From a bacterium (lineage in GTDB: Bacteria > Patescibacteriota > Patescibacteriia > Patescibacteriales > VMTK01): a stretch of 33,919 nt of DNA. Where the stretch lies: positions 1 through 33,919 of the forward strand of contig JAUYAT010000011.1 of NCBI GenBank assembly GCA_030693295.1, in the 5' to 3' direction. Position 1 is the stretch's first letter. The number at the start of each line of letters is the position of its first letter. This document shows, piece after piece, positions 6,724 to 14,640 of this stretch. The notes under the pieces are model-generated. The model did not search any database and had not been told where the DNA came from. It saw nothing but the letters and a program-made list of their open reading frames with translations. A program made the translations under genes and the position numbers.

Positions 6724-6894
6724 ATGATTATTCCGGAAATGGGACAGAAAATTTTCTGCGAGAAGGGGCAGGGCGAAATTGTGTCTATCAATTTTGACAG
6801 AGAAACTTGCGTTGTCGCGCTGCGCAAGCCAAAAAACAAAAAGGTGGAAATTTTATTTCATCAAATTGAAACAACGGAAGAAAAACGCAAATAA
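6724..6894 (+). CDS. Hypothetical 56-residue protein, possible small beta-barrel
   Basis: The product is 56 residues, starting MIIPEMGQKIFCEKGQGEI. A perfect AGGAGG with 7-base spacing supports the start. The pattern GQGEIVSINFDRETCVVALRKP...KVEILFHQIE alternates hydrophobic and charged residues and looks like a small SH3/KOW-like barrel, but this is shape recognition only. Two more very small genes with strong ribosome-binding sites follow within 20 bases of each other, making a compact three-gene cluster between ppaC and tig. Function unknown. Confidence 0.6.
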   Translation: MIIPEMGQKIFCEKGQGEIVSINFDRETCVVALRKPKNKKVEILFHQIETTEEKRK

Positions 6895-6913
6895 GCGCAA
6901 GGGGGGCGATGGC

Positions 6914-7105
6914 ATGGATCAAATCACAAGAAAGGAACTTGAAAAATCCAAATACAAAGAATGCAACAAAAAGGAATACAATGATTTTTTTGCGAGCTTA
7001 AGAAACCAGGCAATTGTTTTGCACATAATACAAGAGATGCAAGAATATAAAAAGACTTTCAATGTAACTAATGGCAAGTATATCATACCAGCGGGAAAGG
7101 AGTAA
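6914..7105 (+). CDS. Hypothetical 63-residue protein
   Basis: 63 residues, starting MDQITRKELEKSKYKE. The ATG at 6914 is chosen because a G-rich ribosome-binding stretch (aagggggg, 6899-6906) lies about 7 bases upstream. A longer frame extends back to 6779, but it would overlap the previous small gene and has no such signal. The protein is charged and rich in Lys/Glu/Asn, probably helical, with no family motif I recognise. It sits 19 bases after the preceding small gene and 5 before the next. Confidence 0.55.
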   Translation: MDQITRKELEKSKYKECNKKEYNDFFASLRNQAIVLHIIQEMQEYKKTFNVTNGKYIIPAGKE

Positions 7106-7110
7106 AAAGA

Positions 7111-7272
7111 ATGGCTGAAAAAATAGAAAAAAGTAAAATTGAACATGATAAATGCGTAAAGTGCGGAGGGGAAACTGAATATCCCAAAGATACCCGTGTG
7201 GATTTTAGAGAGGGTTATATAGAGGGGGCGGGGCAACTTTGCGAAGATTGCCGTAAAAAAATTTATGGATAG
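7111..7272 (+). CDS. Hypothetical 53-residue zinc-ribbon-like protein
   Basis: The product is 53 residues, beginning MAEKIEKSKIEHDKCVKCGG and ending LCEDCRKKIYG. Two CxxC pairs (CVKC and CEDC) separated by about 28 residues form a plausible zinc knuckle or ribbon. An AGGAG at about 7089-7093 lies upstream of the ATG but is rather distant (about 17 bases). It is the last of three tiny genes; a GC-capped hairpin follows 13 bases after the stop. Such small zinc-ribbon proteins are common in mobile and regulatory settings, but no specific role can be assigned. Confidence 0.6.
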   Translation: MAEKIEKSKIEHDKCVKCGGETEYPKDTRVDFREGYIEGAGQLCEDCRKKIYG

Positions 7273-7285
7273 GACAAGAACCCGG

Positions 7286-7313
7286 GGGGAGAAATTTAAT
7301 GGAATTTCTCCCC
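7286..7313 (+). terminator. Hairpin after the three-gene cluster
   Basis: ggggagaaatt (7286-7296) pairs perfectly over 11 bp with aatttctcccc (7303-7313) around a 6-base loop. Only a weak T-rich tail (tatctaattt) follows, so termination may be partial, and read-through into tig at 7347 is possible. Confidence 0.5.
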
Positions 7314-7346
7314 TATCTAATTTAACAAATAACTTACATATTATTT

Positions 7347-8633
7347 ATGAACATACAAAAAAAAGATTTGGGCAAATCGGAAATTGAATTAACCGTTGAA
7401 TTGCCGTTTGATGAATTCAAGCCGTATATCAAACAAGGGGCGGAAAAAGTTTCCCGCGAGATTAAAATTGAGGGCTTTAGGCCGGGCAAAGCTCCTTACG
7501 AGATTTTAAAGCGAAAAATCGGCGAAATGGCGATTTTGGAAGAAGCGGCGCGTATCGCCATTAATAAAACTCTTGAAACCGCGATTAAAGACAATATAAC
7601 CGGCCAGCCGGTAGGCCAGCCGCAGATTAACATCACCAAGCTGGCTCCGGACAATCCGATGGAATATAAGGCGGTTTTGGCCATATTGCCCGAGATAAAA
7701 CTCGGAGATTATAAAAACGCCAAGGTCAAGCTGGAAAAAACAGAGGTTGCGGACGAAGAAGTTGAAAAAATGATTAATGACCTGCGCGAAACGCAGGTTA
7801 AAGAAATAATCGCCGACCGGGAAATAAAAAACAACGACAAGGCGGTTGTTGACATAGAAATGTTTTTGGACAAAGTGCCGGTTGAAGGCGGACAAGGCAA
7901 AGGCGCGGGGGTGATAATCGGGAAAGGATACATTGTCCCGGGCTTTGGCAAAAAATTAATCGGCGGGCGCAAAGGCGAAATCCGCGAATTCAGCCTGCCC
8001 TACCCCGAGGACCACCATCAGCGAAATTTAGCCGGCAAATTGGTTGAATTCAGAGTTAAAATTAAAGAAGTTTATGAGCGCCAACTGCCTGAAATTAACA
8101 AAGAATTCGCTAAAAGCTTCGGCTTAAACAGCGTTGACGGCTTTAAGGAAAACATTAAAAAGGGGCTGGCCGCTGAAAAACAGCGCAAAGCCGGGCAGAA
8201 AGCGGAAATCGCCATGCTGGACAAGATTATTGAAAAAACAAAATTCGGCGATATGCCGGAAATTTTAATCCGCAATGAAGCTGAAAATATGATTGCCGAA
8301 CTTGAAGCAGGCGTTGCCGGCCAAGGCGGCAAGTTTGAAGATTATTTAAGCCATCTTAATAAAACGCGCGACCTGCTCGCGCTTGATTTGTTGCCGGACG
8401 CGGTAAAGCGGGTAAAAACTTCTCTGCTGATGCGGGAGATCGCGCTGGCTGAAAAAATAAGCGCCGAGGACGGAGAAATTGACAAGGAAATAGAACACAT
8501 ATTAAACCATTACAAAGACAGCAAAGGGATTGAGGAAAAAGTGAAATCGCCGGCGCACAGGGAATATCTGCGAAATTTAATAGGCGGCCGCAAAGTAATT
8601 GATAAATTGAAGGAATGGAATATGGAGAAATAA
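7347..8633 (+). CDS. tig: Trigger factor (ribosome-associated chaperone, peptidyl-prolyl isomerase)
   Basis: 428 residues, close to the usual ~430. Trigger factor docks at the ribosomal exit tunnel and shields nascent chains. The ribosome-binding signature GFRPGKAP is at residues 43-50. The FKBP-like isomerase domain follows at about 150-240 (NDKAVVDIEMFLDKVPVEGG, IVPGFGKKLIGGRKGEIREF), then the helical C-terminal chaperone arms. The stop is four bases before smpB, so the two are probably co-transcribed, and the tmRNA gene follows: a compact nascent-chain quality-control block. No Shine-Dalgarno is visible before the ATG. Confidence 0.95.
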   Translation: MNIQKKDLGKSEIELTVELPFDEFKPYIKQGAEKVSREIKIEGFRPGKAPYEILKRKIGEMAILEEAARIAINKTLETAIKDNITGQPVGQPQINITKLAPDNPMEYKAVLAILPEIKLGDYKNAKVKLEKTEVADEEVEKMINDLRETQVKEIIADREIKNNDKAVVDIEMFLDKVPVEGGQGKGAGVIIGKGYIVPGFGKKLIGGRKGEIREFSLPYPEDHHQRNLAGKLVEFRVKIKEVYERQLPEINKEFAKSFGLNSVDGFKENIKKGLAAEKQRKAGQKAEIAMLDKIIEKTKFGDMPEILIRNEAENMIAELEAGVAGQGGKFEDYLSHLNKTRDLLALDLLPDAVKRVKTSLLMREIALAEKISAEDGEIDKEIEHILNHYKDSKGIEEKVKSPAHREYLRNLIGGRKVIDKLKEWNMEK

Positions 8634-11457: not shown

Positions 11458-11541
11458 TAGCATTTCGGCGCAAAAATTTTTATTTGATTTTTTGGATAAA
11501 AAGATGTAAATTTGTAAGCATAACGGATAAAAATAATAATT

Positions 11542-14004
11542 ATGGAATTTAACGAACTTCAACAAAAAATAATAAAAAATATTTACGGCGCGTATTTGGT
11601 GTCGGCTCCCGTAGGAACCGGCAAAACTATGGTTTTGGCCGAAAGGGTTATTCAGGCGCTGGACAGCGGCATTAAGCCGGAAGAAATTTTGTGCCTTACT
11701 TTTACCAACCGGGCGGTTGAAGAAATGACGGAAAGAATAAAAAGGCGAATCGGCAAAAAAGAAATTTATGACAGCGTCACGATTAAAACATTTCATGGCT
11801 TTTGCGCTTTTTTCGTCAGGGCGGAAGCGAAAAGCATCGGCATAAGCCCTGATTTTGTCGTGTTTGATGAATCTGAACAGTTTGAAACTATGAAAAATAT
11901 TTTAGATGAATACCCCGGAATATCAATGAACGGCCAAAACAATAAAAGGCAAGTTATGGATTTAATTGAAAAAATTTATTTTTACAGATTAAATAAATTA
12001 GAGCAAGAAATCGGCTGCGCGGTTAATGACTTTCCGCTTGATAAAACATTGAAAGAAATCGGCGGAAAATATATCAAGGCGTTAAATGATCAAAACGCGC
12101 TTGATTTTAACGAACTGGTGCTTTTAACCATTGAGGCTTTATATTTGGACAAAAAAACAAAAAACAAATGGGCCGAAAGGTATAAATTTATCCAGCTTGA
12201 CGAATTTCAGGATACGCATTTATCCGAGTATTTGGTTTTGAAAGAATTGGCGAAAACCCATAAAAATATCGCCTTGATAGGAGACTTGGACCAGACAATA
12301 TACAGCTGGCGCGGATCCATGCCCTTTTTTATCGCCAAGCTTTTTAAAAAGCATTTCGCGCCGGTTGCAGAATTGAACTTGGAAATAAACTACCGTTTTA
12401 ATAAAAATATTCTGGGGGCGATAAAATCTTTTTTGGCTAATTTTGAAAAGCCGGCGACAAAAGAGATTAAAAGCTTAAACAACGAAAAAGAGGAAAAATC
12501 CGTTGATCTGTTTGCCGGCTATAATTTAAGCGAAGAGATAGGCTGGGTGATTGATAATATTAAAGATATAAAAAATAATGAAAAAGGCGCCAGTATCGCT
12601 GTTTTGGCGCGCTCCAATTATTTAATCAATCAGGTTGCCGATATTTTTGCTGAAAAAAATATCGCCCATATTACGGTTGATAAATATGATTTTTTCAGGA
12701 GGCAGGAAGTAAAAGACATTTACGGTTATTTAAAAATAATTTTTAATAAGTTTGACCTTGAAAGCGCCTGCCGCCTTGTTATGCGCCCCGCCCGCAATAT
12801 CGGCATTTCCACTTTAAAAAATATAAGAGAGAAAGGCGCGCCTGTCGGCTTAAAAGTTTCTGATTTTCTTAATTTTAAAAATTTCAGTTTTCCCGAGCCT
12901 TTCAGCGGCTTGATAGAAAAATGGCATAGCGGAAGAATTATTGTTTTAGACACTGAAACAACAGGCACTAACGCGTTAAAAGACGATATAATCCAAATTT
13001 ACGCGGTTGAAGTTGTTAACGGCCGCAAAGGCGAAGACTTTCATTTTTATTTGAAAAACAGCATTCCGGTCGGATATTCGCGCGAGATCCATGGAATTGA
13101 TGATGAATTTTTGCGAGAAAACGGCAGGGAAGCAAAAGCGGTATTGCAAGAGCTGAAAGAATTCATAAAAGGCGGCGCGGTTGCCGGGCATAATATTAAT
13201 TTTGATTTGTCAATGATAACGGAAAACGCGAAGAGAAATAAAATAACTTTTGAATTTAAAGAATATTACGACACATTGGATATCTCTCGGCGTTTTATTG
13301 AGTCGGAAAGCTACAAATTAACATCTATCGCCAAATTATTGGGGCTGGAAGGCGCCACCCATGACGCCAAAGACGATGTTTCGGCAACAGTCGGCCTTTT
13401 GGAAATATTGGTCAGCAAGCTTAAAACAGGGCGCCGGCAAAGAAGCGCTCTTTTCAAAGAGCACGGAAAAAAGTTTATTCAATTAAGCAACCTGATAAAC
13501 TCATGGGAAAAAATCGCCAAGGAAAAAAGGCCGGCTGATTTTTTGGATTATGTCTGGGAAAGTTCCGGATTAAAAGAATATTACGGCAAAGATAAGGAAA
13601 GCCGAAGCCGTTTAAAATCAATGGAAACTTTGCGCAATTTATTTAAAGAAAAGGATGATTTGAGCAAACAGCCGGAAGTTATGCTTCGGGAGTTGATTAA
13701 TTACGGATCTTTAGTCAAGGATATTAATTTTTTAGGGCTGGAAAAAGGAAAAATTCCCGTTATTACCGTGCATCAGGCAAAGGGGCTTGAATTTGATTAT
13801 GTTTTTTTAATAGGAATTAACGAGTCTAAATTTATGACAGACAAGGACGGCATGGAAGAAGAAAAAAGAATTTTTTATGTCGCCATGACTCGCGCCAGAA
13901 AAAAAATTTTTATTTCTTACAGCAACTTTGATAATTACAACAGGCCTTTGAGCAAGAGCCGCTTTATAAATTTTATTGACCGGAAATATATTAATTATTT
14001 ATGA
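11542..14004 (+). CDS. UvrD/Rep-type (SF1A) DNA helicase with an embedded DEDDh 3'-5' exonuclease domain
   Basis: 820 residues. Helicase motifs: Walker A APVGTGKT (22-29), CLTFTNRAVEEMTERI (Ia), FIQLDEFQDTHLSEY (II), LIGDLDQTIYSWRGS (III), INYRFNKNI (IV), TVHQAKGLEFDYVFL (V) and RIFYVAMTRARKKIF (VI). Between motifs IV and V, at about residues 465-640, lies a full DnaQ-like exonuclease. It has DTETTG (D470, E472), AGHNINFD (D555) and HDAKDD (H607, D612), so all five catalytic residues are present. The insert sits where the 2B region of UvrD would be. The enzyme could unwind DNA and degrade a 3' strand, perhaps in repair. No AddB/RecBC partner is adjacent. The gene is divergent from typA. Confidence 0.93.
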   Translation: MEFNELQQKIIKNIYGAYLVSAPVGTGKTMVLAERVIQALDSGIKPEEILCLTFTNRAVEEMTERIKRRIGKKEIYDSVTIKTFHGFCAFFVRAEAKSIGISPDFVVFDESEQFETMKNILDEYPGISMNGQNNKRQVMDLIEKIYFYRLNKLEQEIGCAVNDFPLDKTLKEIGGKYIKALNDQNALDFNELVLLTIEALYLDKKTKNKWAERYKFIQLDEFQDTHLSEYLVLKELAKTHKNIALIGDLDQTIYSWRGSMPFFIAKLFKKHFAPVAELNLEINYRFNKNILGAIKSFLANFEKPATKEIKSLNNEKEEKSVDLFAGYNLSEEIGWVIDNIKDIKNNEKGASIAVLARSNYLINQVADIFAEKNIAHITVDKYDFFRRQEVKDIYGYLKIIFNKFDLESACRLVMRPARNIGISTLKNIREKGAPVGLKVSDFLNFKNFSFPEPFSGLIEKWHSGRIIVLDTETTGTNALKDDIIQIYAVEVVNGRKGEDFHFYLKNSIPVGYSREIHGIDDEFLRENGREAKAVLQELKEFIKGGAVAGHNINFDLSMITENAKRNKITFEFKEYYDTLDISRRFIESESYKLTSIAKLLGLEGATHDAKDDVSATVGLLEILVSKLKTGRRQRSALFKEHGKKFIQLSNLINSWEKIAKEKRPADFLDYVWESSGLKEYYGKDKESRSRLKSMETLRNLFKEKDDLSKQPEVMLRELINYGSLVKDINFLGLEKGKIPVITVHQAKGLEFDYVFLIGINESKFMTDKDGMEEEKRIFYVAMTRARKKIFISYSNFDNYNRPLSKSRFINFIDRKYINYL

Positions 14005-14016
14005 GTTATACTTATC

Positions 14017-14045
14017 TTGAAAAAAATTTGATTGTCTGCTATAAT
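14017..14045 (+). promoter_or_regulatory. Promoter-like sequence after the helicase gene
   Basis: TTGAAA (14017-14022), a 17-base spacer and TATAAT (14040-14045), 12 bases after the helicase stop. The predicted start (about 14052) coincides with the first base of a small terminator hairpin, so productive transcription is uncertain. Confidence 0.4.
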
Positions 14046-14051
14046 AATTTT

Positions 14052-14074
14052 GAAGCATAAAACCGCTTCTTTTT
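14052..14074 (+). terminator. Short intrinsic terminator after the helicase gene
   Basis: gaagc (14052-14056) and gcttc (14065-14069) form a 5-bp stem with an 8-base loop followed by five T residues. It most simply ends the helicase transcript. Confidence 0.5.
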
Positions 14075-14134
14075 GTTTATCAATCTTCTTATCGCCTCAA
14101 TGCAGTGAAATAGGCAGACGCGAAGAAAGGTATA

Positions 14135-14166
14135 TTGCGCAACATTTACCATTATGCTATAATGTT
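14135..14166 (+). promoter_or_regulatory. HNH gene promoter overlapped by a palindrome
   Basis: TTGCGC (14135-14140), a 17-base spacer and TATAAT (14158-14163). The -10 lies inside the inverted repeat cattat-gct-ataatg (14150-14164), itself nested in aacatt...aatgtt (14141-14166). The start site would fall at about 14170, the A of the gene's ATG, implying a leaderless mRNA. The palindrome could be an operator. Confidence 0.5.
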
Positions 14167-14169
14167 GGT

Positions 14170-14640
14170 ATGAGAACAAAAACTTGGACGAAACAAGAAT
14201 TAAAAAAAGCGGCTAAAAAATCCACAAGCATTAGGCAGGTTCTTGGCAAGCTTAATTTAAAGTTAGCTGGCGGAAATTATACTCAAATTAAAAAATATTT
14301 AAGATTATATAAAGTAAACACAAATCATTTTAAAGGTAAGGCGTGGAATAAAGGATTAAGAGGTATCGGCAAACCCAGAATTGCGTTAGATAAAATTTTA
14401 ATTCAAAACAGTGATTTCCAAAGCTACAAATTAAAAAAACGGCTCTTTGCAGCCGGATTAAAATTTCCAAAATGCGAAGAATGCGGCTGGGCCGAAAAAT
14501 CAATTGACGGCCGAATCCCATTGGAACTTGATCATATTAATGGCGATAGTAGGGATAATAGATTAGAAAATTTACGCATCCTCTGCCCTAATTGCCATAG
14601 TTTAAAACCAACTCATAGAGGCAGAAATCGTAAAAAGTAA
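14170..14640 (+). CDS. HNH endonuclease family protein
   Basis: 156 residues from the ATG at 14170. The frame stays open upstream to 14032, but the promoter's -10 box lies in that extension, so the later start is preferred. The N-terminal half (KTWTKQELKKAAKKSTSIRQ, then LGKLNLKLAGGNYTQIKKYL) looks like a DNA-binding helical domain. The C-terminal half is an HNH nuclease with zinc-binding CEEC and CPNC pairs and the core LELDHINGDSRDNRLENLRI. Such proteins are often free-standing homing-type or mobile nucleases. It lies between the helicase gene and two tRNA genes; its stop is 4 bases from tRNA-Leu. Substrate unknown. Confidence 0.85.
   Translation: MRTKTWTKQELKKAAKKSTSIRQVLGKLNLKLAGGNYTQIKKYLRLYKVNTNHFKGKAWNKGLRGIGKPRIALDKILIQNSDFQSYKLKKRLFAAGLKFPKCEECGWAEKSIDGRIPLELDHINGDSRDNRLENLRILCPNCHSLKPTHRGRNRKK

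Follow-up and report, generated by a model that had tools for sequence, protein, structure and literature searches.

Helicase-nuclease fusion as a kind of arrangement is already known, with RecB, AddA, UvrD-Cas4 and DinG as familiar chains. The protein described here is closest in its motor to the PcrA/UvrD/Rep helicases (SF1A), with which it shares the complete motor, a full 2B subdomain and the conserved motifs. However, those helicases are without the DEDDh domain of about 160 residues that the fused protein carries in 2B, and they lie on the opposite side of a helicase-only tree. The fused protein also stays below the NCBIfam equivalog cut-offs for PcrA (TIGR01073, 342.1 versus 911.2 bits), UvrD (TIGR01075, 279.4 versus 1144.45) and Rep (TIGR01074, 282.4 versus 951.45).

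Other described systems combine similar parts in different ways. The UvrD-Cas4-like, RecB and AddA fusions (pfam12705) likewise join a UvrD-like helicase to a nuclease, but theirs is a C-terminal PD-(D/E)XK domain rather than a DEDDh domain inside 2B; the UvrD-Cas4-like members are described in PMC5704561. ExoDinG, as presented in PMC11981726, also unites a DEDDh exonuclease with a helicase, but its motor is of the SF2 (DinG/XPD-like) type and its exonuclease is N-terminal. The fused protein falls outside that group because Pfam assigns its motor to PF00580 and PF13361 and places its exonuclease internally. MrfA and MrfB again pair a DEDDh exonuclease with a helicase, but as separate proteins, according to PMC10889028.

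The same architecture, insertion site and five catalytic residues occur in the public records WP_258920683.1, WP_237827911.1, WP_004363497.1 and WP_181715756.1. Moreover, the PADLOC model RTasHel (PDLC03802, DRT) matches the full length of the fused protein and, at the corresponding position, contains a segment that fits the exonuclease, although no reverse transcriptase or defence genes are recognised beside the fused gene here. The architecture is therefore already covered by generic public records and by a PADLOC model. In the CC-licensed PMC literature searched, we found no account of a DEDDh domain placed within the 2B subdomain of a UvrD helicase, an arrangement in which the regulatory arm of the motor itself contains a nuclease. 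The family is old, patchily spread and apparently unstudied.

The fused gene and its inserted domain

The window, by which we mean the whole 33,919-nucleotide stretch of DNA analysed, carries an open reading frame on the plus strand (11542-14004) that begins with ATG and encodes a UvrD-type helicase and a DEDDh exonuclease in a single chain of 820 amino acids. All features below lie on the same strand. The 42 positions before the gene (11500-11541) form a very A+T-rich leader without a clear Shine-Dalgarno sequence ahead of the ATG. Pfam recognises UvrD-helicase (PF00580) over residues 4-269 (5e-63, 213.7 bits versus a cut-off of 23), which corresponds to motor domain 1A/1B (11551-12348), and UvrD_C (PF13361) split over residues 279-795 (1e-78, 265.7 bits versus 25.6). 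The start of the split PF13361 match is the first part of 2A (residues 279-383, 12376-12690, with a boundary that is approximate from Pfam and a PcrA alignment). The second part of 2A (13750-14001) holds motifs V (residues 742-750) and VI (residues 779-785), as placed by Pfam, the orthologue alignment and the translation.

All helicase motifs are found in the translation, among them Walker A (APVGTGKT, residues 22-29, 11605-11628) and the acidic pair of motif II (D220 and E221 in DEFQDT, 12199-12204), both located by translation and orthologue alignment. The motifs are invariant across an alignment of 11 orthologues, comprising the window protein and ten others from the order that are 49-67% identical to it. 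Further away, the five fused members from Bacteroidota do not keep R257 (L, I, L, M, M at that position), and one of them has Q in place of E750.

The exonuclease domain spans residues 465-625 (12934-13416), as delimited by Pfam RNase_T and a fold match. The RNase_T/DEDDh profile itself matches residues 467-619 (1e-27, 98.1 bits versus a cut-off of 24). Alignments and translation place the catalytic residues D470 and E472 in DTETTG (12949-12957), D555 at 13204-13206, and H607 and D612 in HDAKDD (13360-13377), with the five codons starting at 12949, 12955, 13204, 13360 and 13375. Pfam and the translation thus bear out the preliminary description, which had noted all helicase motifs and all five exonuclease residues in one 820-residue chain. 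All 11 order-level orthologues share these five residues without change, and the D-E-D-H-D set is intact in all 20 aligned fused proteins, which come from three phyla. Mean pairwise identity among the 11 orthologues (55 pairs) is 62% for the exonuclease and 60-64% for the motor, whereas the first part of 2A and the second part of 2B reach only 49%. With conservation equal to that of the motor and above that of these neighbouring parts, the exonuclease is a constrained domain and not a chance occurrence.

DEDDh enzymes are 3'-5' exonucleases. A second structural model, built for residues 380-745 with exonuclease homologues, reaches pLDDT values of about 88-98 across most of this domain. Its best solved match is S. 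aureus DinG (Z 24.1, 1.6 Å over 169 residues), and the other top matches are PolC, DnaQ domains and E. coli epsilon (Z about 22-24), with the S. aureus DinG and PolC matches at Z 23-24 and 1.6-1.9 Å. From the conserved residues and this fold, we infer that the inserted domain is probably active as a DnaQ-like 3'-5' exonuclease.

When Listeria PcrA and a phage UvrD are aligned to it, the fused protein shows one insertion, and the 2B subdomain of PcrA continues on both sides. The first half of 2B (residues 384-446, 12691-12879, boundary approximate from the PcrA alignment) includes an RNIG segment aligned with RGVG of PcrA. The insertion starts past the stretch of 2B that ends in LKVSDFLN (LSLFEVLN in PcrA) and closes before the second half of 2B (residues 626-736, 13417-13749, boundary approximate from the PcrA alignment and the models), and the exonuclease lies in one 2B loop about 25 residues past the RNIG segment. 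A linker precedes it (residues 447-464, 12880-12933), of which residues 447-453 have pLDDT below 50 in the full-length model and are poorly ordered or flexible there. On the far side, both models predict a helix of about 50 residues (609-659) that leads from the exonuclease into 2B.

The full-length AlphaFold2 model, made from a 29-row alignment, has a mean pLDDT of 80.5 and a pTM of 0.73, with parts of the exonuclease below 50. It superposes on D. radiodurans UvrD (4c2u_A) over 612 of 658 residues (3.1 Å, Z 43.2), and the full 1A-1B-2A-2B fold is present in this predicted structure. Since both halves of 2B are seen in the PcrA alignment and in the AlphaFold2 model, the exonuclease is, on the modelled fold, an addition to a full-length 2B and not a replacement for it. 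It had been proposed that the exonuclease sits where 2B is expected. The domain does fall at the location of 2B, flanked by motifs IV and V, but a full 2B is retained around it. A full 2B is one half of the outcome that the preliminary description had itself counted against its proposal, the other half being a nuclease that faces away from the DNA exit.

In SF1A structures, 2B faces the duplex ahead and the 3' tail exits on the side of 1A. With 2B ahead of the motor in this geometry, it is not obvious how the 3' strand would be fed straight to the exonuclease, nor how unwinding would be coupled to trimming. It is therefore doubtful that the exonuclease receives the 3' strand directly from the motor, as had been suggested. 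Access would instead need rotation of 2B or a second 3' end, for example one supplied by a fork or by a released oligonucleotide.

Distribution and origin of the fusion

The survey of homologues that the preliminary description had proposed returned full-length fused relatives in the order, in Clostridia and in Bacteroidota. A junction-region profile (E up to 1e-30) finds the fusion in 19 of 111 genomes of the order, the source genome included, and not in the other 92; the one other family member tested (G001) is without it. The junction lies on one contig, in a single open frame of 806-872 amino acids, in 16 of the 19 carriers. The fusion is cut by a contig end in G016 and is in two pieces at contig ends in G019. 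In G030 (contig C103), the gene is in two pieces through a frame change within the exonuclease, near residue 495, that reflects either assembly error or decay.

An evenly drawn sample of the phylum gave three matches in 379 genomes, namely the fused proteins of the source genome and G220 and an exonuclease alone in G305. The last of these is a helicase-free frame of 197 amino acids (C3, 72743-73246) that resembles the inserted exonuclease, scores 106 bits on the junction profile and is possibly a close stand-alone relative. A genome-wide DNA scan with short peptide patterns found only three relatives.

Outside the phylum, there are at least six complete single-ORF fusions, in Acetoanaerobium noterae, Chryseobacterium, Phocaeicola vulgatus and three Prevotella, and Bacteroides fragilis carries a frame-broken copy. 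These relatives from Bacteroidota and Clostridia are 24-34% identical to the window protein and are annotated as '3'-5' exonuclease' or 'ATP-dependent helicase', apart from those of Acetoanaerobium noterae and Prevotella F0039, which are unannotated. Because the junction profile was built from CPR sequences and scores the Bacteroidota fusions at only 83-137 bits, some distant members would be missed by it. A search of a plasmid collection returned 1708 matching records, and seven matches among 15 of them, together with one fusion-free phage record, were examined.

A maximum-likelihood tree was computed from 604 columns, with the inserted region removed, for 20 fused proteins and 36 non-fused UvrD, PcrA and UvrD-PDDEXK_1 proteins. 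One branch of this unrooted tree splits the fused from the non-fused proteins (ultrafast bootstrap 100, SH-aLRT 96), every one of 200 bootstrap trees repeats the split, and the five Bacteroidota copies group on a branch of their own. The identical insertion site, the similar linkers and this split fit together, and the sequences are consistent with a single old fusion, judged on an unrooted tree with a small non-fused sample. Independent, repeated fusions are disfavoured because the fused rows all fall on one side of the 100/96 branch (36 non-fused rows, unrooted).

We also considered a phage origin and rejected it, since none of 160 viral ORFs was seen to have both parts and a full-length CPR alignment matched no viral relative. 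These ORFs came from viral contigs, as the top 80 among 161 relatives of the exonuclease and the top 80 among 257 relatives of UvrD. Of the 160, none was classed as having both parts, 54 have helicase motifs only, 77 have the exonuclease only and 29 are unclassified.

Companion helicases and probable function

The companion helicases of the source genome bear on the suggestion that this compact enzyme could stand in for RecBCD or AddAB by resecting double-strand breaks for RecA. A helicase and a nuclease in a single chain, in a reduced genome of 1.06 Mb, would suit such a role. However, the source genome encodes on contig C47 a separate chain of 1071 amino acids with UvrD-helicase, UvrD_C and PDDEXK_1 domains, which is its only PDDEXK_1 match, while Pfam finds no PD-(D/E)XK nuclease domain in the fused protein. 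Such a chain accompanies the fusion in 18 of the 19 carriers, where PDDEXK_1 and a PcrA-profile match fall in the same ORF when compared by contig and ORF length. The exception (G011) has a UvrD ORF of 793 amino acids lying 34 bases from a contig end. Across the order, PDDEXK_1 is present in 103 of 109 genomes.

The expected polarity is also wrong for this role. RecBCD and AddAB must produce the 3' overhang on which recombination depends, and a 3'-5' exonuclease would be apt to degrade it. We therefore regard the stand-in role as very improbable. Given the separate UvrD-PDDEXK_1 chain, the fusion adds to a RecB/AddA/UvrD-Cas4-like enzyme and does not replace it. These small genomes thus keep two different single-chain helicase-nucleases, not one.

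A PcrA-profile match at 1e-40 is found in 100 of 109 genomes of the order, but a stand-alone PcrA-like helicase (at least 840 bits) in only two of the 109. Frequent separate genes in relatives, which had been named as evidence against the proposal, are thus not what the order contains. Because stand-alone PcrA-like helicases are rare, most carriers have no well-scoring UvrD-like helicase other than the fusion once the PDDEXK chains are set aside. The source genome follows this pattern, with the fused protein as its only strong UvrD-helicase match besides UvrD-PDDEXK_1 and with a third match, on C20, of only 51.7 bits.

On balance, we lean toward the reading that the fused protein is a UvrD-like SF1A 3'-5' helicase/translocase with a DEDDh exonuclease in 2B, serving most likely as a single-chain enzyme that unwinds and trims DNA during excision repair and when 3' ends are cleared at forks. 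The motor would start opening DNA at a 3' tail, a nick or a stalled fork, and the exonuclease tethered to it would shorten whatever 3' end is available. Escherichia coli has UvrD and a separate DEDDh exonuclease (ExoI/ExoX) for these activities, and here a single chain might do the job of both. The likely setting would be alongside UvrABC and the separate RecB/AddA-like enzyme. We infer both activities, and with them the polarity, substrate and pathway.

UvrB is present in the source genome (962 bits), which makes a UvrD-like partner for excision repair plausible. In contrast, MutS was not found in this genome, which is 90% complete, and a mismatch-repair role is therefore unlikely here. The absence of the gene from 92 of 111 genomes of the order indicates that it is not indispensable, and most such genomes have the UvrD-PDDEXK_1 chain.

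Perhaps the enzyme is instead a replication-linked editor of 3' ends, that is, a proofreading or 3'-flap exonuclease brought to forks by an accessory helicase. The exonuclease fold is closest to PolC, DnaQ and DinG, and PcrA/Rep-type motors act at forks. Nevertheless, the second of the two DEDDh domains in the source genome, in a separate ORF of 274 amino acids on C61, could be the proofreader, and no polymerase gene is recognised beside the fused gene in the window or in relatives, judging from 25 of the 71 Pfam families matched. This makes an editing role quite unlikely in our estimation.

A swing of 2B is known in UvrD-type helicases, and the orientation of this subdomain has long been discussed as a regulator of UvrD, Rep and PcrA. 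It is conceivable, although we offer this only tentatively and think it more apt to be wrong than right, that the fused proteins are an undescribed, ancient and self-contained helicase-exonuclease family whose mobile 2B carries the nuclease along. The swing would bring the nuclease to, or away from, a 3' end and so switch between unwinding and strand removal, the fusion having arisen once before it spread to CPR, Clostridia and Bacteroidota. A catalytic domain mounted on 2B, with catalytic residues kept across three phyla, is a natural tool for asking what 2B does.

Gene neighbourhood and defence systems

The neighbours of the fused gene in the window are translation and RNA-processing genes, including TypA/BipA, an HNH endonuclease, IF3, SmpB, trigger factor, L20 and RNase J. 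No conserved operon partner appears among 17 clustered neighbourhoods; six of these share the ribosomal S4-rpoA region, which is distant rather than adjacent.

A different reading would make the protein an anti-phage component, carried as mobile defence cargo and related to the RTasHel helicase that PADLOC places under DRT. PDLC03802 is its best PADLOC match (510.4 bits, one stretch over residues 2-818), and positions 399-506 of the model match the exonuclease alone. Nevertheless, plain Listeria PcrA reaches 455.5 bits on the same model, so the match is weak proof. The literature searched gave no origin for the RTasHel model, and the accessible text of PMC12632851 makes no mention of a helicase.

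The patchy distribution is also in keeping with mobile defence cargo, as are the plasmid copies. The frame-broken Bacteroides copy and the intact Phocaeicola copy share a Fic / hypothetical / RhuM / HTH context, which suggests mobile cargo, and the Chryseobacterium plasmid copy comes after two large helicase/AAA genes. Against this stand the housekeeping neighbours in the window (TypA/BipA, SmpB, IF3, L20 and RNase J). In addition, 56 neighbour proteins at 16 relatives matched only three PADLOC models, with one protein each and none of them a reverse transcriptase, and no reverse transcriptase was found among these proteins or among the window neighbours scanned. The only one found in the source genome (PF00078) is on another contig, C56. 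Taken together, these observations make an anti-phage role unlikely.

The C56 reverse transcriptase has 388 amino acids (1297-2463), and its motifs look to us like those of a diversity-generating retroelement enzyme rather than a defence reverse transcriptase. The HNH endonuclease ORF of the window (14032-14640, plus strand) begins 28 bases past the helicase stop, at a TTG that is probably too early, and is followed by tRNA-Leu and tRNA-Gly; the relatives whose neighbourhoods were clustered do not keep it next to the helicase. In one carrier (G043, C11), an ORF of 249 amino acids with a weak PDDEXK_1 match (6735-7481) is found upstream of the fused gene, at a distance of about 600 bases.
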